A stretch of 64,000 bases of DNA from Agromyces fucosus (GTDB lineage: Bacteria > Actinomycetota > Actinomycetes > Actinomycetales > Microbacteriaceae): assembly GCF_004134865.1 (NCBI RefSeq), contig NZ_SDPO01000002.1, forward strand, positions 1,054,001 through 1,118,000. Reading direction: 5' to 3'. Numbering within the stretch: position 1 is the first letter of the stretch; each line of letters opens with the position of its first letter. Under the pieces are notes generated by a model, which saw only the letters and a list, made by a program, of their open reading frames with translations, searched no databases and was not told the DNA's origin. Shown one piece after another: positions 24,316-61,401 of this stretch. The translations under genes and the position numbers were made by a program.

Positions 24316-24714
24316 ATGACCGAAGCCTCGAAGATGATCGCAGCCGCACCCGAAGTCGATCGCTATCTAGACGGTCTCCCGTCGGAATTCGGAGGCCCGC
24401 TCGTCCGTCTCCGCGACGGCATCCGCAGCGCGGCGCCCGCGGGCACCGTCGAGAACATCAAGTGGAACGGGCCGAACTACGCGCTCGACGGTGTCGACCG
24501 CGTGACGGTCGGCACCGACCCCAGGGGCAAGGTGCGCATCGTCATCCACCGGGGCGTGAAGATCGTCGATGCCGAGGGCTTCAGCTTCGACGACGACACC
24601 GGGCTCGTGCGCTGGGCGGCGGCCGACCGCGGCGTGATCGCCCTGGACCCGGCCGAGATCGATGCGCATCGCGACGAGATCGTCGCACTGATCGAACGCT
24701 GGCTGCAGCTCTGA
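24316..24714 (+). CDS. DUF1801 domain protein
   Basis: 132 aa from ATG 24316 (an in-frame ATG at 24283 would add 11 residues). The fold is suggested by 'LPSEFGGPLVRLRDGIRSAAPAGTVENIKWNGPNYALDG', where the conserved 'E-x-IKW--P' motif of DUF1801 (YdhG-like) is clear, and by the C-terminal 'DEIVALIERWLQL' helix. These are small cytosolic proteins of unknown biochemical role. It begins the variable segment that continues to the tRNA genes. Confidence 0.8.
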   Translation: MTEASKMIAAAPEVDRYLDGLPSEFGGPLVRLRDGIRSAAPAGTVENIKWNGPNYALDGVDRVTVGTDPRGKVRIVIHRGVKIVDAEGFSFDDDTGLVRWAAADRGVIALDPAEIDAHRDEIVALIERWLQL

Positions 24715-24729
24715 CGGCGGATCCGGCCA

Positions 24730-24870
24730 TCACTGCGACACGAGGTTCGCCACGCGCCCGAGGGCCATCTTGATGTCGATGAGCTCCCGCTTCTGGACAT
24801 GCCGTTGGTAGTGGTAGACCTCGGGCGCGCAGTGTGGCCAGCAGCCAGACACAACACGGCCCGGAGCTGG
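24730..24870 (-). pseudogene. C-terminal remnant of a lost gene
   Basis: A leftward frame with no start ends at TGA 24730-24732. Its last ~30 codons read like real protein with G+C-rich third positions ('EVYHYQRHVQKRELIDIK' then 'MALGRVANLVSQ'), but the frame closes at 24871-24873 and the sequence before it is not protein-like. The most likely explanation is the tail of a gene whose front has been deleted or frameshifted. The family is not recognised. Confidence 0.4.
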
Positions 24871-25000
24871 TCACCGAGCATGCTTCCGCGATGTCGTGAG
24901 CGCGACGTGTGGGCCTCGGGGCGAGAGGTGTCCAGCAATCCGGACAGGGAGCCGCCCTCGTGCGCTATGAGCGGCGTGCGTATGATCGCGGGAGAGGGAG

Positions 25001-25384
25001 ATGGTGATGCCCAAGATCATCTGGGTTGTAGTAGCGATCGCCAGCCTTGCGGCTGTGGCAGTCACGATGGCGCTGTTCCCAGACGCGATAGGACCGTGGA
25101 TCGCGGTGATTCTCTGGGGCTCGATCGCAGTCGGTTCGGTAATCAGAGTGTTCACGAAGCGATCCGGCCCGCCGGCGCAGGAGCCTGGACGCGGAGCGCT
25201 CGAAGCCTACGAGTCCAACTACCTCAACCGACTCCCTCATCGCATCGAATGGCCGATTGACCAGGAGCCGTCGACCTCGATTGTCGAGGATGGCGGGCAG
25301 GGCGACATTCGGGGTAATCGCATCGTCGTGGATCCTCCTGAGCAACGAGTGCCCGGCCCTCAACGGAGACACGAGGAAGGGTGA
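25001..25384 (+). CDS. two-helix membrane protein, unknown
   Basis: 127 aa; AGAGGGAG immediately precedes ATG 25001, so the second ATG at 25007 may be the true start with better spacing. Two helices (~5-25 and ~31-50) are followed by a hydrophilic cytosolic tail ('FTKRSGPPAQEPGRG...'). A TATGAT box at 24981-24986 could be its -10 element. Codon use is less biased to G/C in third position than in the core genes, in keeping with the variable segment around it. No family recognised. Confidence 0.55.
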   Translation: MVMPKIIWVVVAIASLAAVAVTMALFPDAIGPWIAVILWGSIAVGSVIRVFTKRSGPPAQEPGRGALEAYESNYLNRLPHRIEWPIDQEPSTSIVEDGGQGDIRGNRIVVDPPEQRVPGPQRRHEEG

Positions 25385-25748
25385 GCTCGCGATCCGTTTC
25401 ATGTGCTGAGAGGAGCGCTTCGCCGACGCAGTGCACCTCGAGATCCGAGGCGCGCGAGGGCGAGGTGAGCGCCAAGCATGGAAGTGGCCAGGGTGCGCCC
25501 CTTCAACAGGAGACTGCGCCCTTGCCACATGGTGCGAGGTCAGCCGGCTACCGCCGACGCGAACTCAGCTGTGTCGATCTCAGTCCCACCGGATGTAGGC
25601 GCCGCCCGTGACCGTGGAGATCGACTTGCCGCTCGCTTGCGTTAGGCGAGGACGTTGCCCTGTTCAACATGTGGTCTCCTTCGATCAGAAAAGGAGGAGA
25701 TCGGTCGATCCTCCGGTGAAGAATGCCCGGACCGGCTCGGGAGGTTGC
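25385..25748. other. 364-bp stretch without an intact gene; second coding remnant
   Basis: No intact gene is supported. On the minus strand, 25580-25663 holds 27 codons ending in a protein-like tail 'GKSISTVTGGAYIRWD' before a stop, with another stop just upstream, so it looks like the end of a decayed gene. An AAAGGAGGAG at 25689-25698 has no suitable start behind it on the plus strand. Confidence 0.4.
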
Positions 25749-26003
25749 CTATTCGCGAGAATCAGTTCGGTGGCCGATGACGAGCGCCGCACCGATGAAA
25801 GCAGCGCCGAGAGGAGCGCCGATCTCGCGCACGAGCCGGACGAGCAGATCAATGAATACGCCGGCCGTCTGACCGACGACTCTATCGCCGCCGATTCCGC
25901 CGAGAACCGGCGGGAGGATGACGATGAGCACCGCGCAGAGTGCGAGCAGCGCGACACCAACCCACAGGAGTGTCTTGGCAGATCCAGTCACGTTGAACGT
26001 CAT
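25749..26003 (-). CDS. 84-aa two-helix membrane protein
   Basis: ATG 26003 with GAGGGAG 9 bases upstream. Helices at ~9-32 ('KTLLWVGVALLALCAVLIVIL') and ~48-75 ('VGQTAGVFIDLLVRLVREIGAPLGAAFIGAALVIG') with a short polar tail. No family recognised. It lies downstream of the sigma-factor pair but separated by 159 bases, so independent expression is likely. Confidence 0.5.
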   Translation of the reverse strand: MTFNVTGSAKTLLWVGVALLALCAVLIVILPPVLGGIGGDRVVGQTAGVFIDLLVRLVREIGAPLGAAFIGAALVIGHRTDSRE

Positions 26004-26162
26004 CAGGTAGTGCTCCCTCGAGAAATGGTCGGTCACCAAGAGATGTCCGGCGCAACGCCTCCGGATGCATAAAGGCGCCGACTTCGACGGCAGCTGCATA
26101 GCGACGCACCGACGCGTCGCGCTGCGCTGCGATCGTGTTCCGCCTCAGGGGACTGTGGCTAA

Positions 26163-26693
26163 CTACCCGCCGTCACCGCCATCAACGGGCGCGAGGCCGA
26201 GGCGTTGGCAGACCGCCGGCTCTGACGAGGGAACTGCGGCCGCGCTGCCATCAGGCATCACGCAAACGATGAATGCCTCGGGCACCTCGCCTGGGGCGTT
26301 CGTCGTCGACCGGGGATCGAATCCCGGCTCCATCGCACCCTGCTCCCACATCATCGTGCAGAATTCCACAGCTTCGATCGCGCGGGCTTCGCCGTTCGCG
26401 GAGGCAAGCGAGCCCATCCCTCCCGGGTAGCTGCCGTCGGCCGCACGCTGGTCGGACTCCAGGCAGTGCACGATCTGCTCGTTCGACACCGTCTGTGCCT
26501 GCAATACGACTCCTGCGGCCGTAGCGCCAATGCCAACAACCAGCACCCCGGCGCCGCCCCACGCGAACCAGCGGTTGCGGCGCCAGCGTGCTCTCTTTTC
26601 GCGCGACTCTTCGAGGTTCTCGAGCACGAGACTCTTGATCGCAGCCTCGCGCCCCGGGCGCATTTCGGGGCGGCCGTCCAGCGGTTCGTTCAT
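26163..26693 (-). CDS. membrane protein coupled to ECF sigma factor (putative anti-sigma)
   Basis: 176 aa; its ATG overlaps the stop of the upstream sigma gene (26690-26693), so the two are translated together. A cytosolic N-terminus of ~43 residues ('AAIKSLVLENLEESREKRARWRRNRW'), one transmembrane helix (~46-69), then an extracellular domain of ~105 residues with four Cys that could form two disulfides. The order sigma gene then single-span protein is the usual anti-sigma layout, but the short N-terminal part has no ZAS zinc motif, so anti-sigma function is inferred from position only. Confidence 0.6.
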   Translation of the reverse strand: MNEPLDGRPEMRPGREAAIKSLVLENLEESREKRARWRRNRWFAWGGAGVLVVGIGATAAGVVLQAQTVSNEQIVHCLESDQRAADGSYPGGMGSLASANGEARAIEAVEFCTMMWEQGAMEPGFDPRSTTNAPGEVPEAFIVCVMPDGSAAAVPSSEPAVCQRLGLAPVDGGDGG

Positions 26694-27271
26694 ATGTCGA
26701 CCACTTCCGATGCTGGAGCGAATCGTTCGAGCTCCACCTGGAGCTTCTTCCGGGTGCGGGACAGCTTCGCCTTCACAGTGCCGACGGGCATATCGAGGAC
26801 GATTGCTGCTGCGGAGACGGGCAGTTCATCGATCAAGCAGAGCTCGATCACACGCTGATCCGATTCGCTGTAGCGCTTCATCGCGACTCGCAGCGCTTGG
26901 AAGGCTTCGCTGGCTGCGATCTGCGCGAGGGTGCGCTCACTCAGATCGGGCTCGTGATCGGGAGGAGGCAGCTTCGCAAGCAGCCGCCGATACCGGCGGC
27001 TCGCGCGATCGTGGTTCAGGCAGACATTCAGGGTGACGACCAGCAGCCACGGCCGGAGCGAGCCATCCACGAACCTGACACTGTCGCGCTTCCGCCATGC
27101 CTCCATGAAGACGATCGCGACGACATCCTCGGCCTCCGTGACATCACGGAGGCGGTCGTATGCCCGTTTGAATACGAGACGCCGATACCGGTCGAAGATG
27201 ACGGCGTACGAAGCGTCGGTACCAGAGGTCGCCTCCAGCCACAGAACAGCATCCTGCACCTCGTAATTCAC
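26690..27271 (-). CDS. ECF RNA polymerase sigma factor
   Basis: 193 aa from GTG 27271. Region 2 at ~18-85 ('YAVIFDRYRRLVFKRAYDRLRDVTEAEDVVAIVFMEAWRKRDSV', 'RPWLLVVTLNVCLNHDRASRRYRRL') and region 4 at ~125-180 ('YSESDQRVIELCLIDELPVSAAAIVLDMPVGTVKAKLSRTRKKL'). It should direct a small regulon answering to a membrane signal, with the co-encoded single-span protein as its likely partner. The 242-bp spacer 27272-27513 before tRNA-Ala holds no other gene and should contain its promoter. The moderate G+C of this pair differs from the core genes. Confidence 0.9.
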   Translation of the reverse strand: MNYEVQDAVLWLEATSGTDASYAVIFDRYRRLVFKRAYDRLRDVTEAEDVVAIVFMEAWRKRDSVRFVDGSLRPWLLVVTLNVCLNHDRASRRYRRLLAKLPPPDHEPDLSERTLAQIAASEAFQALRVAMKRYSESDQRVIELCLIDELPVSAAAIVLDMPVGTVKAKLSRTRKKLQVELERFAPASEVVDI

Positions 27272-27513
27272 ACCCGAAGTCTAAGCAGGAGGTCACGCGA
27301 ACGCGGTACCGGAACGTCGACCGTGAAGTACCGTGATCCCACGAATACAACCAAGGTGGCATACCCGGCTATCTCTCTCCAGAAGGGCATGTGCGGGGAG
27401 AGATCGAGAACGAGCGAGCGCGCAGCCTGGCTGGGAATCGCTCACGGCAGAGAAAAACCCCGGAATCTCGCGGTATTTGCGGGATTCCGAGGTTCTGAGG
27501 TTCTGAGTTGCTG

Positions 27514-36365: not shown

Positions 36366-37787
36366 TCAGCGGTAGCGGCTGACCTGCTTGATGCGTGCGG
36401 TGAGCTCGGTGACCTGGTTGTAGATGGAGCGACGCTCCTTCATGAGTTCCGAGATCTTCTTGTTCGCGTACATGACGGTCGTGTGGTCGCGGTTCCCGAA
36501 GAGCTGCCCGATCTTCGGCAGCGACAGGCTCGTGAGCTCGCGGCAGAGGTACATCGCGATCTGACGCGCAGTCGCCACGGCCTGCGATCGGCTCGATCCG
36601 TAGAGGTCGTCGACGGTGAGCTTGAAGTAGTCGGCGGTCGCCGTGATGATGTCGACCGGCGACACCACGTTGTCCGAGTCATCCGTGATCAGGTCCTTCA
36701 ACACCGTCTGCACGAGCGGCATGTCGACCGGCGTGCGGTTGAGGCTCGCGAACGCGGTCACACGGATGAGCGTGCCCTCGAGCTCTCGGATGTTGCTCGA
36801 GACCTTCGACGCCATGTACTCGAGGATGTCGTCGGGCACCTGGAGACGCTCGGACTGGGCCTTCTTCCGGAGGATCGCGATGCGCGTCTCGAGGTCGGGC
36901 GCCTGGACATCGGTGATGAGGCCCCACTCGAAACGACTGCGCATGCGGTCTTCGAAGCCCGTCAGGTGCTTCGGCGGCACATCGCTCGTGATGACGACCT
37001 GCTTGTTGTGATCGTGCAGCGTGTTGAAGGTGTGGAAGAACGCCTCCTGCGTCTCCGCCTTGCCCTGCAGGAACTGGATGTCGTCGATCAGGAGGATGTC
37101 GATGTTGCGGTACCGCTGCTGGAACAGCGAGCCGCGGTTGTTCGCGATCGAGTTGATGAAGTCGTTCGTGAACTCCTCGGAACTCACGTATCGCACGCGG
37201 ATGCCCGGATACAGGCTCATCGCGTAGTGGCCGATGGCGTGCAGGAGGTGGGTCTTGCCAAGGCCCGAGTCACCGTAGATGAAGAGCGGGTTGTAGGCCT
37301 TCGCCGGTGCCTCGGCCACCGCGACCGCCGCCGCATGCGCGAAGCGGTTGGACTGACCGATGACGAAGCTCTCGAACCCGTACTTCGGGTTGAGCCGGGT
37401 GTCGCGCGACGCGACGGGACTCGTGTTCTCGAAGACCGACTGAGGAGACGCCGGCAGTTCGACCGGATCGATCGCCTCATCGACGAACGGCGACTGCGGC
37501 TCGGCCGCCCTCGTCTCCTCGAGCTCGGGATTGACGACCACGTAGAAGGAGGTGACGGGAGACGGCGCCTCGACCACGCTCATCGCCGACAGCAACGACA
37601 CCCGCATGCGCTGATTGAGCATGCTCGCCGTGAAGTCGTTCGGCACCTCGAGATAGAAGGTGCCCGCTGCGATGCCCTTGGGCTCGACCAGGTTCAGGAA
37701 CCCCTGGAGCATCGGAGTGATCGCGTCGTCGTCTGACAGCCGATCGAGGATCGTCGCCCACGTATCCGTGATGGGCTGCTCTGTCAT
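36366..37787 (-). CDS. dnaA: chromosomal replication initiator DnaA
   Basis: 473 aa from ATG 37787 with GCGGGGAACG upstream; a TTG at 37799 would add four residues. Domain I at ~1-85, linker II ~85-135, AAA+ domain with Walker A 'IYGDSGLGKTHLLHAIG' and Walker B 'DILLIDDIQFL', and domain IV with the DNA-binding signature 'GNRDHTTVMYANKKI'. It binds DnaA boxes and melts oriC in its ATP form. Near-perfect boxes upstream of its start (37879-37887 and 37935-37943) suggest autoregulation. Confidence 0.98.
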   Translation of the reverse strand: MTEQPITDTWATILDRLSDDDAITPMLQGFLNLVEPKGIAAGTFYLEVPNDFTASMLNQRMRVSLLSAMSVVEAPSPVTSFYVVVNPELEETRAAEPQSPFVDEAIDPVELPASPQSVFENTSPVASRDTRLNPKYGFESFVIGQSNRFAHAAAVAVAEAPAKAYNPLFIYGDSGLGKTHLLHAIGHYAMSLYPGIRVRYVSSEEFTNDFINSIANNRGSLFQQRYRNIDILLIDDIQFLQGKAETQEAFFHTFNTLHDHNKQVVITSDVPPKHLTGFEDRMRSRFEWGLITDVQAPDLETRIAILRKKAQSERLQVPDDILEYMASKVSSNIRELEGTLIRVTAFASLNRTPVDMPLVQTVLKDLITDDSDNVVSPVDIITATADYFKLTVDDLYGSSRSQAVATARQIAMYLCRELTSLSLPKIGQLFGNRDHTTVMYANKKISELMKERRSIYNQVTELTARIKQVSRYR

Positions 37788-38216
37788 CGTTCCCCGCAAT
37801 CATTCGGTGGCCGTCGTCTGGCCGCTCATCGATCCCCCGATCGACGGAGCAAGCGGCGCGAGGCGCGTGTTCTCTGCGTTATCCACGGCCTGTGGGGAGA
37901 TTTCGGAAGAAGCCCGAGAATCCGCGCACCAAGCTGGGGATAACTGGTGTCAAACGCTATCCGAGGAAGGCGCTCCCGACAAATGCCGATTGAGGGATTC
38001 GATAGCTCGGGTGTGTCGTTCCACAGGCGATCCTGAGGTTCGGGCGATACTGTCTCTTTTGTACTGCGGCCACTTCGGATTCGGTTCGGTTTGACCCCGA
38101 GCCTTCGAGGCCGTAGTTTTAATCAGTTGACCCCAGCCCGTCAAGGGCACCCAGTTTTCCCGCCATCACGCAACCAGCGAATTTCGGCGAGGAGATCCGA
38201 ACGCCGGAGAAGAAGA
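37788..38216. promoter_or_regulatory. dnaA-rpmH divergent spacer with DnaA-like boxes
   Basis: 429 bp between the divergent dnaA and rpmH genes. It contains TTATCCACG (37879-37887, plus), reverse TGGGGATAA (37935-37943) and GTTCCACA (38019-38026), 8/9 or weaker matches to the DnaA box, and the rpmH promoter at its right end. Nothing protein-coding is evident. Confidence 0.7.
38091..38119 (+). promoter_or_regulatory. rpmH promoter
   Basis: TTGACC (38091-38096), 17-base spacer, TAGTTT (38114-38119) followed by TAATC. This is a near-consensus sigma-A promoter, about 98 bases before the rpmH start, consistent with strong ribosomal-protein expression and a long leader. Confidence 0.7.
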
Positions 38217-40677: not shown

Positions 40678-40693
40678 CGTTTCACGTGAAACG
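40678..40693. promoter_or_regulatory. parS site 1
   Basis: CGTTTCACGTGAAACG spans the jag-rsmG junction and ends at the rsmG start. The 14-bp core GTTTCACGTGAAAC is identical to the ParB consensus; only the outermost bases differ from TGTTTCACGTGAAACA. Confidence 0.9.
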
Positions 40694-41323
40694 ATGACCG
40701 ACGGACTCGAACCCGAACCGGCCGCTGCCGTCGAGCTCTTCGGCGAGCACATCGAGGGCGGGCGGGCCTTCGCGAACGCCCTTGCACGGCACGGCGAGGA
40801 GCTCGGCCTGATCGGCCCGCTTGAGTTGCCTCGCCTGTGGACCCGCCACATCCTGAACAGCGCGCTGGTCGCACCCTTGCTTCGGCCCGGTCGAGTGGGC
40901 GACGTCGGATCCGGCGCCGGTCTGCCCGGCATCGTGCTCGCGATCATGCGACCGGATGTCTCGTTCACCCTCATCGAACCGATGGAGCGTCGCGTCGCGT
41001 GGCTCGAGCGGCAGGCCGATGAACTCGGCCTCTCGAACGTGACCGTCGTGCGGGCGCGCGCAGAGGAGTCCAAGCTCTTCGACCAGCTCGACCAGGTGAC
41101 TGCTCGCGCTGTGAGCGCGCTCCGCACGCTCATTCCGGTCACCGCTCCCCTCCTGCGACCAGGCGGTGAACTGGTGCTCATGAAGGGCGCCGGAGTCGAC
41201 GGTGAGATCGGTGCGGCCGAGAAGGTCATTCGCAAGTACCAACTGCATGATGTCGAGGTCCTCGTGCTCGGCGAAGGTGTCGTCTCCGAGGTCACGAGGG
41301 TGTTCCGCGCAACTGCGGGCTGA
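40694..41323 (+). CDS. rsmG: 16S rRNA (guanine-527-N7)-methyltransferase RsmG
   Basis: 209 aa from ATG 40694, directly after a parS site. The SAM-binding motif is 'VGDVGSGAGLPGIVLAIMRPDVSFTLIEPMERRVAWL', with 'RARAEES' and 'VTARAVSALRTLIPVTAPLLRPGGELVLMKG' following. It methylates G527 of 16S rRNA; loss gives low-level streptomycin resistance in many bacteria. It ends the rpmH operon. A 4.1-kb gene-free stretch follows. Confidence 0.97.
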   Translation: MTDGLEPEPAAAVELFGEHIEGGRAFANALARHGEELGLIGPLELPRLWTRHILNSALVAPLLRPGRVGDVGSGAGLPGIVLAIMRPDVSFTLIEPMERRVAWLERQADELGLSNVTVVRARAEESKLFDQLDQVTARAVSALRTLIPVTAPLLRPGGELVLMKGAGVDGEIGAAEKVIRKYQLHDVEVLVLGEGVVSEVTRVFRATAG

Positions 41324-41899
41324 AGCTCCTCGTCGCGAGCCGCGCTCTGCGGTCCCGGGCAGGGCTTGTCGCACATCGCAAGGGCGTCGTTCGGCCGAAC
41401 GTCAGCCGTTGTGGCGCTGATGCCGTTCGTGTTCTGCACCTTCATCCATTGAGGCGCACGAGCACTGGGGCGCACGAGCCTTGGCTCGGTCGTGTGAAGC
41501 GCGGAGGCGGCAGCGTCTGCGTGGATGGTCATGCCTGACGGCGTTTCGGACGCTCGCATGGTGACGGCTAGCGCCGCCTCCCAGAACCTGCACCCGTCGA
41601 CCCAATCGATGCCGACGTCTGGCCGACCTCGTGCCAGCTGGCATCCCTGTGGATCTGTCGTCGGTGTGGGCGCTGCTGTTGCGACGGTCGGGGGGTTGGT
41701 CGCGCGGGTGGCGGCGAGTCGTCGAACTGGGCGCCGGTCTGACGTTGGCCATCACGTCGAGCACGTGTGACGCCCGCGACTCTCGAGATCTGTCCAGCTC
41801 GCGCCCCGCGGTGAGGAACGTTGCCGCAAGGGGCCAGCGGTGCGACATGACGGTGCTCGAACAGCGTCGGTTCTCTCTCGGTCGACGTGGTGCCGTGAG

Positions 41900-41915
41900 C
41901 GTTTCACGTGAAACG
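41900..41915. promoter_or_regulatory. parS site 2
   Basis: CGTTTCACGTGAAACG, core identical to consensus, in the rsmG-parA island. Confidence 0.9.
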
Positions 41916-42353
41916 CACGCAAGGCGCTGGGTTCGATGGGCGACGGCGGTCGGTGGTCCATCGAAGGTGTCCCCTGCTGGATCCCTTGTCTTCGACCTGT
42001 CCGCGGCGCGGTCGAACGGTGACCGCGCTCCTTGCCCCGTGCTCCTCACCTTGCTCCCCACTCTCGGTCGCATTCGTCTCTCTCCGGCTTCCCATCGCTT
42101 CTCCCCCTGCTGCTCTCTTTCAGAGAACGCGACAGTGTGCGGTGCTTGGCGCACGCGACAGCCACCCGCATGTGTCTGAGTGTTCGCGGATCCTCCGCTA
42201 TAGCTCCTCCACACCAAGCCGTGCTCTGTGCCAGGCTCCCCTGCGATCAAGGCCCCTGTCTCTTCGCAATGTGATCCGCTTCGCTCCGGGCGATCGCTCG
42301 CTGAGCTGTTACTGAGATCGTCTAACCCTCAGCCCACCCCGGTTCCTCAATGG

Positions 42354-42369
42354 CGTTTCACGTGAAACG
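42354..42369. promoter_or_regulatory. parS site 3
   Basis: CGTTTCACGTGAAACG, the same variant as sites 1 and 2. Confidence 0.9.
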
Positions 42370-43628
42370 GTCGTTGGTATCAGCGTGTGCATCCTCGGCA
42401 CGTTGAAGCTCGCGGCGCTCGACTCGAAGTTGCCGGCACTCTGCGGCGCGGCTTGGCCGATACAGCCCACTGCCTCGGCCCGGGTTGGATCAAAGCTCCG
42501 CCACGCGAAGGTCGGCGGGATCGGTCGCATTGCATGAACCGATCGGTTCCCCTGGTGTGTCGCTGGCCGAAGCGGCCGAAACCTCTGCAGACCGCGTTGG
42601 CATCGCGATACCCAGGGGTGACCGACGCAGATAAGTGAGGACGGGTACCTGGCTCTCGGAGACAATCACCTAGAACTCGAATCGTCGTACTGCATGTCAC
42701 CCCCCGGCGGAGTCCAAGCGCCGGACCCCGCGCAGCTCATGCCCCGGCCGGCGCCGGGAGTGATGGATCCCGCTCGCGACCCCGCGCCGCTGCCTTCGTT
42801 CCGTGAACGACGCCTCCGACCGGTTCGGCCACGCCCCGGGCCGCCGCCCATCGTGCAGTACGTGTTGTGGCGGGGTTCGCGGATAGTGCGGCGATTCAGG
42901 TTCCCCGGCACCGGTCTTCCCTCGGCGGCATCTCGTCGCTTCAGTGTCCGCCGGTCCGGACTCGGATCGAGCCTGGCCAATCGCACACCTTCGCGCGATG
43001 GAACCGGTGCGCCTGCCATTCGCGCGCCTGCAAACAGATCACACGCCTCCGCGGCCGGATGGTGGACGCCTCCCATGGAGCGGCAGGGTTCGGAGCGCCG
43101 GGCCGCATCGGAGGGCCGGAGTCCTCGAGGTATGAGGAACGAGCGCCCGGCAAGCGGCAGGTGCATAAGAAGCGTCGACGAAACTGCTGCTGTGGCACGA
43201 GCTTCTGGGCCTGGTTCACGCGGTCGGACGTACTGCATGACCGGCGCACTGGCACGTCGAGAGGTGAGGGCGCACAGCTCGGGCGATCACGTCTCCGGTG
43301 CGCGTTGTCTGGCCGTGATCTCCGGTCCCTGCGAGGCATTCAGTCTGTATTCCTCAATCCTGTTCGTCAGTGGTGAGCGCAGCGCAACCGGCGCTGAGCT
43401 TCGGCCCACTGGTGAGGACGTTGAACTCGACGGCCAATTGATCCGACACCGCACTCTGGCGCGACGCTTGGCCGATCTCAGCGTCGCACGGAAGCGCTGG
43501 GTGTCACTGATGCAGCGAGCATGCCAATGAACCGAACCCAACCGGTCTCGCGCGCCAATGGTGTGTCGTTGATCCACTCCCCCGTGAATTGCCGCGGAGG
43601 ACGGGGAGACCCATGCTCGATGCTACCG

Positions 43629-43688
43629 GCGGGTGCGGGTGCGGGTGCGGGTGCGGGTGCAGGTGCGGGTGCGGGTGCGGGCGCGGGT
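43629..43688. repeat. hexanucleotide tandem repeat, 10 units of GCGGGT
   Basis: Ten contiguous 6-bp units, eight exact GCGGGT, one GCAGGT and one GCGGGC. On the minus strand it would read Ala-Pro repeats, on the plus strand Gly-Ala, but no credible gene frames it. Confidence 0.85.
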
Positions 43689-43751
43689 GGCGCGTCGGCG
43701 GGCGCTGGGGTGCGGGTGCAGCGGGTGTGCGCGCGTGATGTGTGCCAGCAT

Positions 43752-43967
43752 CCCGATGCCCCGATGCCCCGATGCCCCGATGCCCTGCTGCCCTGCTGCC
43801 CTGCTGCCCTGCTGCCCTGCTGCCCTGCTGCCCTGCTGCCCTGCTGCCCTGCTGCCCTGCTGCCCTGCTGCCCTGCTGCCCTGCTGCCCTGCTGCCCTGC
43901 TGCCCTGCTGCCCCGATGCCCCGATGCCTCGATGCCCGGATGCCTCGATGCCCGGATGCCCGGATCC
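43752..43967. repeat. octanucleotide tandem repeat (minisatellite), 27 units
   Basis: 216 bp of an 8-bp period. Sixteen exact copies of GCCCTGCT (43782-43909) are flanked by GCCCCGAT-type units on the left and by GCCCCGAT, GCCTCGAT and GCCCGGAT units on the right. Because 8 is not a multiple of 3, each strand translates as a mixed repeat in every frame and all frames stay open, so the long open frames across it are artefacts. Confidence 0.92.
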
Positions 43968-44214
43968 CGTAATCGGAGGCGTTCCACCGATGTGAGGTCG
44001 CGTGGACCTTGCGCCGCACCCGCCTTCCGGACGCCGCCATCACAGGGATCGGCACGGATTTGCTCGACGATGCGGGCAAGCAGCGAAACGGCGTGTACCA
44101 GCCGACGGAATGGGAATCGGCAACGACCGAGTCTGACCGATCGCAGGGCGGCCCGGTCCGGAACCGGTTGAGAGCAGTGCGCCGGTAGAGACGAGTGCCG
44201 TGAAGATGCGCGAG

Positions 44215-44340
44215 GCTGTGGGATGGGCGGGGCTGTGGGGATGCGCGGGGCTGAGGAGATGGGGGGCTGTGAGGATGCGCGGGGCTGTGGAGATGCGGGC
44301 TGTGGGGATGCGCGGGTCTGTGTGGATGAGCGGGGCTGTG
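44215..44340. repeat. degenerate ~17-bp purine-rich direct repeats
   Basis: About seven imperfect copies of GATGCGCGGGGCTGTGG, with strongly G-rich plus strand and units of varying length. They lie between the 8-bp repeat and parS site 4. Confidence 0.75.
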
Positions 44341-44460
44341 GCGCCGATCTAGAACGTGCAGGCCAGCGCATGCGCCGACACGAGTCTGACCACCGAGACG
44401 AGTGTGGGCGCCGAGGGAGCCGGGAGATTCGTGGAGGTTGCCCACGAGATCGTGCACCGA

Positions 44461-44476
44461 TGTTTCACGTGAAACA
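44461..44476. promoter_or_regulatory. parS site 4
   Basis: TGTTTCACGTGAAACA, perfect consensus; the palindrome extends to 22 bp (44458-44479) with flanking CGA/TCG. Confidence 0.95.
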
Positions 44477-44902
44477 TCGATCGGTTCAGGGACGCGGGCA
44501 ACGTGGACCGGCGGCTTGGAAGCGCCGAATCAAAGCCGTCCAACGGACCGAACGCCGCCTCTGCACGGCGGCGCAGCGCACTCCCGCGTGTAGACCGACA
44601 TCGGTCGTCGGTGATCAGTCACCAGGGGGGACCTTTCACGACGAGGCAGACGGCGAGGCCGTTCAGGCCGCCGCGGATCGTCAGCACTTTCGTACGAGCG
44701 GTTCGGGCTCTCGGCCCAGACCAGCCGGACATGGTGAAGGGTTTCCAACGAGAAGAGCTGTGCAAGTGCCTCACCCCCTTGCGTTTCCGAGCCCTTCGGT
44801 GGCGCGACGAACGGAGACCGACGCCCCACGTCTTGAACTGGCGCCTCCATCCGACCGGTCTCCAACTCTCCTCAATCGCGTGGCCCACTCGAGGTCCGAT
44901 GG

Positions 44903-44918
44903 TGTTTCACGTGAAACA
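44903..44918. promoter_or_regulatory. parS site 5
   Basis: TGTTTCACGTGAAACA, perfect consensus; 44 bp (about four helical turns) from site 6. Confidence 0.95.
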
Positions 44919-44946
44919 TTGGATATCCACTTTGCTTGTCAGCCGA

Positions 44947-44962
44947 TGTTTCACGTGAAACA
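44947..44962. promoter_or_regulatory. parS site 6
   Basis: TGTTTCACGTGAAACA, perfect consensus, in an extended CGA...TCG palindrome like sites 4 and 7. Confidence 0.95.
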
Positions 44963-45445
44963 TCGGTCGGATGCGGACGATCGGGGGATGAGGAGGCGAT
45001 CGAGCGCGGCCAGGGGAGTTCGTCATCGCAGCCTCCATTTGGGACACGAAACCGCGCTTCATCGGGCGACGCAAGGCTGAACCATCCCGTGGCTCTCGCG
45101 ACAACCCACGGTGCACGTGTGTGGTTGACCCGCTCCCCGCAATCGAACTCACCCGGTCCGCCGGCCGCGGCGGCCGTCACAGGGGGGACACCTCCTCCGG
45201 TGGCGGTCCACTTGTCAGTCATCGAGCGTCGGCCGACCCGACCCACCGTTTGGCTCGCCTCACTCGACTCGCCCTGCCCAGCCGCGCCGACACTCACCCG
45301 TGCGCAGGACGATCGGTGCGGATCTCTCGTAGTTCGCTCGTGTTTCAACTTGAGAGTCGGTCGCGCCGGTTAGGCTTGACTCTCGGATCGAGGACGCCGC
45401 AGAACGCGGCAGATCTCTCGAATACCAAGGATTTGGAGCGTCGGC

Positions 45446-47482
45446 ATGGCACAGGGCGGGGGACGTGGATGGTTTCACCGCAAGCGCCCTCAGCCCTCCC
45501 CCGATGAGCCCGCCCGCGGCACGACGCATTCGAAATCGGCTCCGCTGACTCCTCCGGAGACGCTGCCTGAGTCCCAGCAGCCGCAGCCCAGCGGCGCCGA
45601 CCGCGGCCAGTTCGCCGAATGGACCGCCGCGGCGCCGTCCAGCCCTGCGACGGTCGGGGGGGAAGGTGAGACCGGCGCTCCCCCCGGCTCGGCCGGCGAG
45701 ACCGTGCCACCCATCGAAGGCGCGGCTGCTCAGGCTGGCGGACCCGATTACATCGCATCGGCCGTGACGCCCGATGCTCCCGGCATGCCGACTGTGCCCT
45801 CCGCGCAGCAGGCGGTTGCTTCGTCCGGCGGCCGTGCGATCGATTGGGATGCCGCAACAGCGGCAGCGCTCAGCGCAGATCCCGATCCTGCCGGAGTCGT
45901 CCCCGACCATCACCCGACGGGACCCGACCGTCTGCTCGAAGACCTGATCCGCGAAATCGTCGGTGACGCAACCGCAGATACTGCGTCATCGCTCCACCCT
46001 GCGCGTGCTCAAGCAGATGGCGGCACGACGGTGCAGAGCGTGACGGTGCAGAACCAGGTCGTGCAGACAACGACGGCCGAGACACCGACGGCTGTGCCGA
46101 CGGCCGATACGGCGGCGGAGACGGAGCCAGAGACGCGTGAGACGGCGGCGATGGCGGAGACGCAGGCCGCGGCGACCGATGCAGTCGTGGCGCAAAGCGC
46201 ATCGCCCAGGATCGCGCCGGCTGGAGCGACGCCTGGTTCAGTGCCGCTTTCATCGGGCCCGACGCGCGAGATCGACTCCCCCGAAGCCACGATTCCGTTG
46301 ACCTCGGACGCGGCACGACCCATGCCAGTGGTCGGCGATGGTACCGGGGAGCGCATTTCGGCAGCCGTTCCACAGCCGAGTACTCGTCCACCCGAGGCTG
46401 CCGCTACGGCGGGTCCTGGTCCCGCTCCGCTTCAGCGTCCCGATTCTGAAGCTGTGAGTTCTGCGCCTCGCCCGGTGACCACCACTCCCCCGGGCAATGA
46501 CGCGAGCATCAGCCCCGCACCCCAGTCCGCACCTGCTGCAGGCCCCCACGCACCAACCGAAGCCCCCGATGTTTCACGTGAAACATCGTCAGATCACGGA
46601 GGAACTCCCCTGGCTTACGAACTCGCCGACGAGACCCGTCGGCGCACCGCACTCGACGAAGCGGTTCTCCCGCTTCCCCCGTCGACTCGCGTGCTGACGA
46701 TCTCCAACCAGAAGGGCGGCGTCGGCAAGACGACCACCGCCGTGAACCTTGCCGCAGGCCTTGCTCGCTCCGGAGCCCGAGTGCTCGTGATCGACCTGGA
46801 CCCGCAGGGCAACGCCTCGACGGCACTCGGCGTCGATCACCGATCGGAGCGCAAGAGCGTCTACGAGGTGCTCGTCTCCGATGTTTCGTTGGCCGAAGTT
46901 GTGCAGCCATCCACCGAACACGAGCTGCTCGACTGCGTGCCGGCGACCATTCACCTCGCCGGCGCCGAGATCGAACTCGTGTCACTCGTGGCGCGTGAAC
47001 AGCGGCTCCGGCGTGCGCTCGACGCTCATCTCGCTTCGATGGATCGCCCGTACGACTACGTCTTCATCGACTGCCCGCCCTCCCTCGGACTCCTGACGAT
47101 CAACGCATTCGTCGCCGCGCGCGAAGTGCTCATCCCGATCCAGTGCGAGTACTACGCGCTCGAGGGTCTCTCTCAACTGCTCAGTAACATCGAGTTGATC
47201 GAGAAGCACCTCAATCCCGAGCTCCGCTTGTCGACGATCCTGCTGACGATGTACGACTCGCGTACCAACCTCGCCCAGCAGGTTGCGCAGGAGGTCCGCG
47301 ACCACTTCCCCGCCCAGACGCTGGAAACGATCATCCCCCGATCGGTCCGAGTCTCGGAAGCACCGAGCTATGGGCAGAGCGTCATCAGCTACGACTTCGG
47401 ATCCACCGGATCATTGTCGTATCGTGAGGCGGCCGCCGAAATCGCCCGTCGCGGAGCGGCAACACCCGAGGAGTCGAACTGA
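45446..47482 (+). CDS. parA: chromosome-partitioning ATPase ParA with long N-terminal extension
   Basis: 678 aa from ATG 45446 (GGAG upstream). The last ~285 residues are a standard ParA: 'VLTISNQKGGVGKTTTAVNLAAGLA' (deviant Walker A, Lys ~423), 'VIDLDPQGNASTALG', 'YVFIDCPPSLGLLTINAF', 'IQCEYYALEGLSQLL'. Residues 1-~390 are Ala/Pro/Thr/Glu-rich, predicted disordered, with one more ordered piece 'DRLLEDLIREIVGDA' (~residue 155-170). A parS site lies inside the gene and encodes 'DVSRETS' (~residue 375-381). If the extension is not translated, the start must be near 46610, but no ATG or GTG with a good signal is there. ParA moves ParB-parS complexes. The stop overlaps parB. Confidence 0.9.
   Translation: MAQGGGRGWFHRKRPQPSPDEPARGTTHSKSAPLTPPETLPESQQPQPSGADRGQFAEWTAAAPSSPATVGGEGETGAPPGSAGETVPPIEGAAAQAGGPDYIASAVTPDAPGMPTVPSAQQAVASSGGRAIDWDAATAAALSADPDPAGVVPDHHPTGPDRLLEDLIREIVGDATADTASSLHPARAQADGGTTVQSVTVQNQVVQTTTAETPTAVPTADTAAETEPETRETAAMAETQAAATDAVVAQSASPRIAPAGATPGSVPLSSGPTREIDSPEATIPLTSDAARPMPVVGDGTGERISAAVPQPSTRPPEAAATAGPGPAPLQRPDSEAVSSAPRPVTTTPPGNDASISPAPQSAPAAGPHAPTEAPDVSRETSSDHGGTPLAYELADETRRRTALDEAVLPLPPSTRVLTISNQKGGVGKTTTAVNLAAGLARSGARVLVIDLDPQGNASTALGVDHRSERKSVYEVLVSDVSLAEVVQPSTEHELLDCVPATIHLAGAEIELVSLVAREQRLRRALDAHLASMDRPYDYVFIDCPPSLGLLTINAFVAAREVLIPIQCEYYALEGLSQLLSNIELIEKHLNPELRLSTILLTMYDSRTNLAQQVAQEVRDHFPAQTLETIIPRSVRVSEAPSYGQSVISYDFGSTGSLSYREAAAEIARRGAATPEESN
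46570..46585. promoter_or_regulatory. parS site 7, inside parA
   Basis: TGTTTCACGTGAAACA, perfect consensus, in frame within the parA coding sequence at the border between extension and ATPase domain; extended palindrome CGA...TCG. Confidence 0.95.
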
Positions 47483-48462
47483 TGGCAACGAAACGAACCG
47501 GTCTCGGACGTGGGATCGGCGCGCTGATCCCGAGCGGCGAAGACAGCACGCGGGCACGCCCGGTCGACGTATTCTTCCCGGAAACGGATGCGCAACAGCC
47601 CACCGCGGTTGCGGTCGTCGAGCAGGCCGCGTCGGCCGAAGGGCTCGTCAACGTCCCGGGTGCTCACCTGGCCCGACTCGACCCGAACGACATCCTTCCG
47701 AACGCCCACCAGCCGCGAAGCGTCTTCGACCCCGACGACCTCGCTGAGCTCGTGCACAGCGTCCGCGAGTTCGGAGTGCTGCAGCCCATCGTGGTTCGCC
47801 GTCACCCCGAGCTCGCCGGCAAGTACGAACTGGTCATGGGCGAGCGGCGCCTTCGAGCCACCAAGGCAGCGGGCTTGGACTCCATCCCCGCGGTGGTGAA
47901 GGACACCGCGAATGAAGACATGCTGCGCGACGCGCTGCTCGAAAACCTTCACCGCTCGCAGCTGAACCCTCTCGAGGAGGCCTCGGCCTACCAGCAATTG
48001 CTCTCCGACTTCGGCATCACGCAGGAACAGCTCGCCTCGCGCATCGGTCGCTCACGTCCGCAGATCTCGAACACTCTCCGACTTCTGCGGCTCCCCGAGC
48101 CCGTGCAACTCCGGGTCGCGGCGGGCGTGCTGAGCGCGGGCCACGCTCGAGCCATCCTGTCGATCGGTGACGACGCGGCGGAGATGCAGCGTTTCGCCGA
48201 CAAGATCGTGAACGAGGAGCTGTCGGTGCGTGCGGCCGAAGCCGTCGCGACGAAGGAGCCGAAGACATCCCGACCGAAGCCCTCTGCCGGCAAACGACAG
48301 GATTTCCTCGAGGACCTGTCCACTCGGTTGGGCGACCGCCTGAACACCCGCGTCAAGATCGCGTTGGGTGCAAGGAAAGGCCAGATCAGCATCGATTTCG
48401 CGACCGTTCAGGACTTGCGTCGGATTCTCACGGAACTCGGCGAGAATCTCGACGGAGTGTGA
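47482..48462 (+). CDS. parB: chromosome-partitioning protein ParB
   Basis: 326 aa, start overlapping the parA stop (TGATG). N-terminal 'RTGLGRGIGALIP' binds ParA; the ParB/Srx domain has 'ILPNAHQPRSVFDPDDLAELVHSVREFGVLQPIVVRRH' and the CTP-binding 'GERRLRATKAAG' with 'DALLENLHRSQLNPLEEA'; the HTH is 'GITQEQLASRIGRSRPQISNTLRLLRLP'; the C-terminal dimer domain ends the protein. It clamps DNA at parS with CTP and spreads, recruiting ParA and SMC. Confidence 0.97.
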   Translation: MATKRTGLGRGIGALIPSGEDSTRARPVDVFFPETDAQQPTAVAVVEQAASAEGLVNVPGAHLARLDPNDILPNAHQPRSVFDPDDLAELVHSVREFGVLQPIVVRRHPELAGKYELVMGERRLRATKAAGLDSIPAVVKDTANEDMLRDALLENLHRSQLNPLEEASAYQQLLSDFGITQEQLASRIGRSRPQISNTLRLLRLPEPVQLRVAAGVLSAGHARAILSIGDDAAEMQRFADKIVNEELSVRAAEAVATKEPKTSRPKPSAGKRQDFLEDLSTRLGDRLNTRVKIALGARKGQISIDFATVQDLRRILTELGENLDGV

Positions 48463-60983: not shown

Positions 60984-61103
60984 TCGCGTGTTCGCGGGCC
61001 GTGTCGCGTACACCCGCCGGCGTGGTGCGCGCAAGTCGTATCGGTGTTTCCTGTGATGGTTGTACACAGGTCGACGCACAGGTGCGGTGGACTTCCAAAG
61101 AAG

Positions 61104-61248
61104 TTTTCCCCCACAGGTGTGAGTAGATATAAAACCCGGTCAGACTTGAATTCAACCCGTGTAATTCACCGAGTTTCCACAGTTATCCACAGGCGAAGTG
61201 CACACATTCCACGGCGTTTCGCCCAGATTGTCCCCAGAGTTATCCACA
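61104..61248 (+). promoter_or_regulatory. dnaB upstream region: promoter and paired DnaA boxes
   Basis: The 469-bp spacer 60933-61401 between rplI and dnaB holds, besides the terminator, a candidate promoter TTTTCC-N18-TATAAA (61104-61133) in the most AT-rich part. Downstream of it are two pairs of DnaA boxes: GTTTCCACA (61173-61181) with TTATCCACA (61183-61191), and TTGTCCCCA (61228-61236) with TTATCCACA (61240-61248). Two boxes are perfect and all four point the same way. Confidence 0.7.
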
Positions 61249-61401
61249 GGCTGGGTTGTGTTGTGCACACCGGCTTCCCTATCGTGAAGCAGCGTCCATT
61301 CCACCCCGTTCGAAATCCCGGTCGACCAGCTGTGTCAGCGGCCTCCGAGACACTGGGTCGTGGGCGCGGGTCGCTCACCCGCTTGAGCCGAACCGGAGGT
61401 C

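Follow-up and report, generated by a model that had tools for sequence, protein, structure and literature searches.

What is a 4.1-kb stretch without genes doing between rsmG and parA on an Agromyces chromosome? The stretch (41324-45445) lies in a 64-kb window, the whole piece of DNA analysed here, from a 4.0-Mb Agromyces genome whose RsmG has its nearest named relatives in A. cerinus and Agromyces sp. Root81. The window carries yidC, jag, rsmG, the stretch, parA and parB in that order, all on the + strand (the Jag profile score is under its own cut-off), with rsmG and parA flanking the stretch in one transcriptional direction. A first-pass annotation had read the stretch either as a centromere-like platform for the partition protein ParB, left undisturbed by transcription, or as the relic of deleted genes. 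We conclude that it probably makes up most of the chromosome's centromere, as a compact zone of several parS sites in noncoding DNA onto which ParB would be loaded.

Seven parS sites lie in the window, against 0.09 expected from shuffled sequences. A search of the whole genome for the exact 12-base core returned seven matches, all in the window, and allowing up to three mismatches to the 16-mer again returned those seven parS sites only, with a count of six for the reversed-pattern control. Site 1 (40678-40693) sits at the jag/rsmG junction and site 7 (46570-46585) within the frame of parA, where the codons of the ATPase core begin 120 bp further on. The other five, as the first-pass annotation had counted, fall within the stretch: sites 2 (41900-41915), 3 (42354-42369), 4 (44461-44476), 5 (44903-44918) and 6 (44947-44962, 44 bp after site 5). 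Neighbouring sites are 44-2107 bp apart, and the full set covers 5.9 kb (40678-46585) at 2.9-8.8 kb from dnaA (36366-37799, - strand; PF00308, PF08299), which lies 3.5 kb left of the stretch and marks the origin region. An excess of parS sites beyond chance, nearness to the origin with dnaA as its marker, and adjacent parA and parB (47482-48462, + strand; TIGR00180, PF02195, PF17762) are the marks of a ParABS centromere.

The DNA that holds these sites has no coding signal. In the stretch, 23 longer open reading frames (ORFs) have scores between -0.31 and -1.01 bits per codon, a G+C content at third codon positions (GC3) of 0.57-0.79 and an inconsistent third-position excess, whereas the controls jag, rsmG and the ParA core reach +0.23 to +0.39 bits per codon, with a G+C content at second positions (GC2) of 0.44-0.46 and a GC3 of 0.80-0.81. 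Across windows of 240 nt, the highest-scoring of the six frames stays at or below -0.22, inside the range of the shuffled control (mean -0.47, maximum -0.01); the test has a limit in that windows of the dnaA-gyrA region themselves drop to -0.29 at the 5th percentile. Codon-bias scoring of the 23 frames was negative throughout, which bears out the earlier claim that no frame here is protein-like. The many long open frames could still conceal a small protein, a noncoding RNA or a long parA leader. Codon positions are flat, however, and the stretch is not conserved in three near relatives; Pfam gave no family for nine of ten ORFs and one match at an expectation value (E) of 0.43, and the Rfam hits were two microRNA models at E 0.3, far under the gathering score, which fall on the palindromes of sites 5-6. 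Since neither family database gave a significant match and the codons carried no signal, we rejected a hidden protein or RNA as very improbable.

We compared the locus across 46 Agromyces genomes, which remain from 49 loci with both rsmG and parA once three duplicates are removed (L135, L136 and L139, the same genomes as L043, L052 and L034); L045 and L097 (parA outside the sequence taken), L116 (without rsmG) and L001-L030 (too short for rsmG) were dropped. The platform arrangement is kept in all 46: the interval from rsmG to parA, henceforth the island, is at least 1.15 kb long and carries one to nine parS sites, the value of nine coming from L132, where no parA start was found, the island end is estimated and sites were counted nearly to the ParA core. 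In L119, L121 and L128 a single exact parS precedes the parA start and another lies in the parA frame. Outside the island, an exact parS occurs at the same offset as site 7 in 41 of the 46 genomes, and a place comparable to that of site 1 is occupied in 36. Among the 13 genus genomes whose parS sites were fully listed, the exact sites fall on one contig within 1.7-5.5 kb in 12 and on two contigs in one.

The sequence between the sites is a different matter. Up to the rsmG stop codon, the window aligns with the three nearest genomes (G034, G021 and G018) at ~83-92% identity within the compared region (36-52 kb of the window), apart from ~800 bp (36963-37763) that look unaligned in G034 merely for missing sequence. 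From 41325 to 45291 nothing aligns in any of the three except 36 bp at parS site 4, which with its edges (44457-44492) is found in two of them. As controls we took the 16 remaining window stretches of 150 bp or more in which no gene was called. With G034 and with G021 alike, 14 of them align over 92% or more of their length, and with G018 13 do; the two exceptions belong to one 2.8-kb segment missing from these relatives. When the stretch was searched against 60 genus genomes with 5 candidates scored per genome, the matches listed, self aside, all lay in tandem-repeat tracts or parS sites. Copies of the stretch elsewhere were also considered and rejected, the matches listed again holding nothing beyond repeat tracts and parS apart from the stretch itself, and a plasmid origin was rejected on the absence of similar DNA from 72,556 plasmid records.

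These comparisons also refine the borders of the stretch, whose gene-free state is otherwise as first described. On the left it begins after rsmG (40694-41323, + strand; TIGR00138). Alignment with the nearest genomes resumes at 45292-45307, and two relatives share the last ~140 bp (45307-45445, + strand) as a conserved block, so that the gene-free, hypervariable spacer covers 41324-45306, the latter border being approximate. The conserved block contains a GAGAGTC...GACTCTC inverted repeat and is a candidate parA promoter or operator. The right border can be set at 45445 because the ParA start is conserved: the ATG at 45446 is backed by an N-terminal motif, MAQGGGRGWFHRKR or a related form, present in 45 of the 46 Agromyces (at the ATG in 41, aligned solely from inside the motif in 4; none was found in L132).

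How fast does the spacer change? More than 10% of the shorter island is shared in merely 16 of 1035 Agromyces pairs. The alignable fraction is 85% for L039-L115 and 42% for L130-L131, at fourfold-site divergences of 0.16 and 0.18. Among four pairs at 0.25-0.27 it is 38-53% in three, owed partly to genes inside the islands, and 4% in the fourth, and in seven pairs at 0.3-0.4 it does not exceed 5%. High alignability at greater distance is confined to the pair L046-L113 and to two sets (L118/L119/L121/L138 and L130/L131/L133/L134), each of which shares a gene-like segment. In neutral simulations with varied rates of insertion and deletion (indels), a mean of 57-99% of the island would still align for L031-L111 (divergence 0.27) and 22-97% for L034-L036 (0.31), compared with 4% and 0% observed. 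On this evidence island turnover does appear to outrun synonymous change in some Agromyces pairs, with the reservation that neutral divergence may be larger than the fourfold sites of these GC3-rich genes indicate. The window comparison alone is no proof of this, since simulation at 0.37, its divergence from the nearest relatives, leaves 4-45% alignable; faster-than-synonymous turnover of the window's own spacer is thus suggested, not proven.

Against this background the parS sites stand out. Around ~170 further sites between rsmG and the ParA core of the 46 Agromyces, the flanks lose their conservation after ~4 bp in each direction (the sites were picked by an exact 14-mer, and the flanks alone are informative). 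Near-matches are also concentrated in the islands, which hold 20 sites with one mismatch and 11 with two, against ~0 expected; the upstream flank has 6 and 0 and the downstream flank 0 and 0. Sites therefore seem to be gained and lost there, and probably the near-matches reflect sites that come and go or, in some cases, sites that act as weaker ones. Spacings below 70 bp number 16 against 7.5 expected (standard deviation 2.6; the highest of 500 simulations was 19), so that an excess of close pairs is suggestive only.

The Agromyces islands also bear on the reading of the interval as an insertion hotspot in which genes land and decay, the window being caught in the decayed state. No gene was called in 30 of the 46 islands at a cut-off of 20 bits, or in 27 at a laxer 15 bits, which leaves 16 (19 at 15 bits) with called genes of assorted kinds; the codon model behind the calls was trained on ten genes of the window and may overlook genes where GC is lower, as in the genus of L219. 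The six island proteins tested comprise glyoxalase-like, LD-carboxypeptidase, tyrosine phosphatase and YecM-like proteins and two of transposase type, the transposase-type genes (Mutator family; rve integrase core) lying inside the L046 and L132 islands. Such variety is what a hotspot would produce, but no single gene is common to the islands, the window lacks codon periodicity and matches its relatives' island proteins no better than E 0.16, and relics would leave the repeated gain of parS in long gaps unexplained. We regard this reading as unlikely, and likewise a gene relic for this window, so the relic half of the first-pass annotation did not hold up. Over 104 loci, called genes exclude 370 of 428 parS sites, with uncalled DNA making up 24% of those loci.

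Is the arrangement peculiar to Agromyces? We surveyed one genome per genus from 80 other genera of Microbacteriaceae, all readable (G134, G142 and G163 were left out, and G181 replaced G098 of the same genus). The expectation that parA follows rsmG closely holds for most of them (54 of 80 with a gap below 500 bp) and fails for Agromyces. Gaps shorter than 300 bp (51 genera) contain a mean of 0.75 exact parS sites, with none in 15 genera, one in 34 and two in 2, whereas gaps of 1 kb or more, seen in 17 genera, contain two to eight in every case, and 15 of these 17 gaps are at least 95% free of called genes. The junction of jag and rsmG also has its exact parS in 47 of the 80, at 638-702 bp ahead of the rsmG stop codon. 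On a tree of RsmG and ParA with 86 rows, the long-gap state needs nine changes, five of them forced by well-supported branches; long gap and parS number agree in a mean of 4.8 of five supported independent pairs and are never opposed (median p 0.0625). Elsewhere in the order, the gap reaches 1 kb or more in 5 of 20 genomes from other families (of 23; G051, G058 and G059 were left out), each with two to five exact sites, and neither the 80-genus nor the 20-genome survey contains a gap of that length with fewer than two. The link across genera is an association, not proof. The platform half of the first-pass annotation nonetheless gains support, because all parS sites of the genome are found here, all 46 Agromyces keep the arrangement and long gaps carry extra sites. 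At the short extreme, the loci filed under Curtobacterium (among L067-L108; L078 and L089, with other titles, filed there by default) have a gap of 134-193 bp, and exact parS sites occur in 2 of the 21 Curtobacterium-titled loci (L077 and L102). The genus of L219 has a 6.9-kb gap with 2 exact and 11 one-mismatch sites, and its parS consensus is possibly shifted.

Three Plantibacter islands show what is kept when the spacer does align. They are 75-86% identical over their full length, and look noncoding because their mismatches are even over codon positions and just 4-7 of 18-32 indels have a length divisible by three. Across five parS columns, 5 of 210 bases are off consensus; 5 of 140 is the fairer figure, leaving out one exact row per column, since columns were chosen for at least one exact site. 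All five off-consensus bases yield a GTTCCAC half, and the half site GTTCCAC is bound by ParB of P. aeruginosa and of several other species (PMC7022226).

The spacer could also be a mere by-product: selection would act on scattered parS sites, and what separates them would be neutral filler of functionless length, growing by slippage and insertion and persisting since large deletions would remove parS. The lack of spacer conservation in the nearest relatives fits such filler, as does the spread of island lengths (1.15 to 5.0 kb) in the 45 Agromyces whose parA start could be mapped. So do the tandem repeats, which occupy 6.4% of island bases versus 0.36% in the 3.5 kb upstream (~18 times denser); the three kinds that had been described in the stretch are all real arrays, with a 6-bp unit (43629-43719), an 8-bp unit in ~27 copies (43752-43965) and a degenerate 18-bp unit (44205-44341). 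Against filler of no consequence, at least 1.15 kb is kept in all 46 Agromyces, and the three Plantibacter intervals from rsmG to the ParA core measure 2249, 2262 and 2295 bp despite 14-25% sequence divergence, hinting at restrained indels. We hold the by-product account to be rather doubtful.

How would a centromere of this kind work? ParB is loaded at parS as a CTP (cytidine triphosphate)-dependent clamp, from where it spreads over kilobases; the resulting complex is moved by ParA. By this known ParABS biology, ParB clamps would load at the seven parS sites within 5.9 kb and spread over the DNA between them, giving one dense partition complex that ParA could move; Agromyces would build it from closely placed sites where little else is encoded. 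Selection in Agromyces would then keep the parS sites and a supply of noncoding DNA between them, not the sequence of that DNA, which would turn over as bases are substituted, repeats slip and, now and then, a gene is inserted or lost. That genes are mostly absent there may be because promoters and elongating polymerase fare badly on DNA coated with ParB, or because none is needed. We tentatively entertain a further possibility, that the island is a regional centromere: selection would hold both the number of ParB sites and a length of DNA as a runway for ParB clamps while leaving its sequence free, and the arrangement would have arisen or expanded repeatedly in one order, in some Agromyces pairs changing faster than synonymous sites. 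ParB binding and spreading at the locus, and any selection on spacer length, are what we infer from the arrangement.

Several observations weigh against the centromere reading or narrow it. Called genes occur in 16 of the 46 Agromyces islands, so that the gene-free state of the window extends to just 30 in the genus. Promoter avoidance was not found: the -10-like motif TANNNT has an observed/expected ratio of ~0.53 in islands versus 0.25-0.28 in the mostly coding flanks used for comparison, so special avoidance of promoter-like motifs is not supported, and this counts against the stricter, still conjectural idea of a platform silent to transcription. Hypervariability as a general property of such islands is ruled out because the Plantibacter islands align over their whole length. 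Gap length and parS number are not independent, because longer gaps hold more room, and of the nine genera with gaps of 500-999 bp, seven have just zero or one exact parS. Two whole Curtobacterium genomes contain zero exact parS and a single one-mismatch site. In C. glutamicum a single parS is enough for growth and more sites give more ParB subclusters (PMC7083940). Few sites thus suffice elsewhere, and a platform such as this one is not essential to life.

Comparison with known systems places the island more precisely. Fast-evolving eukaryotic centromeres retain their function while their DNA sequence turns over; in Agromyces the binding site itself is conserved and the spacer alone changes. 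C. glutamicum, like Agromyces an actinobacterium, has ten origin-proximal parS, all but one intergenic, spread over 35 kb at 73 kb from oriC, whereas Agromyces has its seven within 5.9 kb and five of them in one gene-free interval beside parA (PMC7083940). Caulobacter crescentus is compact in the same way, with its five strongest parS within 5 kb and ~8 kb from the origin; ParB spreads at most ~2 kb around one parS in E. coli, and close clustering of parS is proposed to offset weak spreading (PMC5815017). The Caulobacter sites lie within essential or costly genes, those of Agromyces mostly in unconserved noncoding DNA (PMC5815017). In P. aeruginosa some parS are likewise intergenic and ParB represses neighbouring promoters, which would be one reason for the rarity of genes in the islands; its four parS lie among genes, and the part of the paper at hand describes no gene-free platform (PMC7022226). 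Judged by titles and the starts of abstracts, the open-licence parS papers that our searches listed do not describe a gene-free parS island, so its novelty is provisional; for parS or ParB in Microbacteriaceae we found herbicide-degradation work alone, and on chromosome segregation in Agromyces nothing.

The variability of the island continues into parA (45446-47482, + strand), which encodes a conserved 14-residue N-terminus, a variable linker of ~400 residues and, from residue 415-416 on, the ATPase core. Across 45 Agromyces genomes the part ahead of the core is 122-612 residues long; in the window this extension scores -0.22 bits per codon and is likewise unaligned to G034, G021 and G018 over the variable linker (~46006-46540). 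The N-terminus and hypervariable linker together occupy 45446-46690, with parS site 7 inside in frame, and a similar RGWFH motif, in frame after a methionine, precedes ParA in two other genera (L151 and L153). A replication origin within the island was considered and rejected: the TTRTCCACA box is absent there, and none lies beside dnaA either. DnaA-box-like words cluster at 61060-61269, where two copies of TTATCCACA and three one-mismatch relatives occur in an uncalled, A+T-richer stretch ~24 kb from dnaA. The 2.8-kb segment missing from the three nearest genomes (24711-27510) adjoins tRNA-Ala and tRNA-Ile (transfer RNA) genes and carries a gene for a sigma-70-like factor (26690-27271, - strand).

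The island bears on why parS sites cluster, why their number varies and whether the DNA around them matters. One family offers natural contrasts at the same place and among the same genes, from ~150 bp with one site to several kilobases with up to eight or nine, and these contrasts allow tests of whether ParB needs gene-free DNA and of how spacer length and site number each contribute to the strength of the partition complex. If this reading is true, the island would be an unusual case of bacterial noncoding DNA, at kilobase scale, that is retained without conservation of its sequence.

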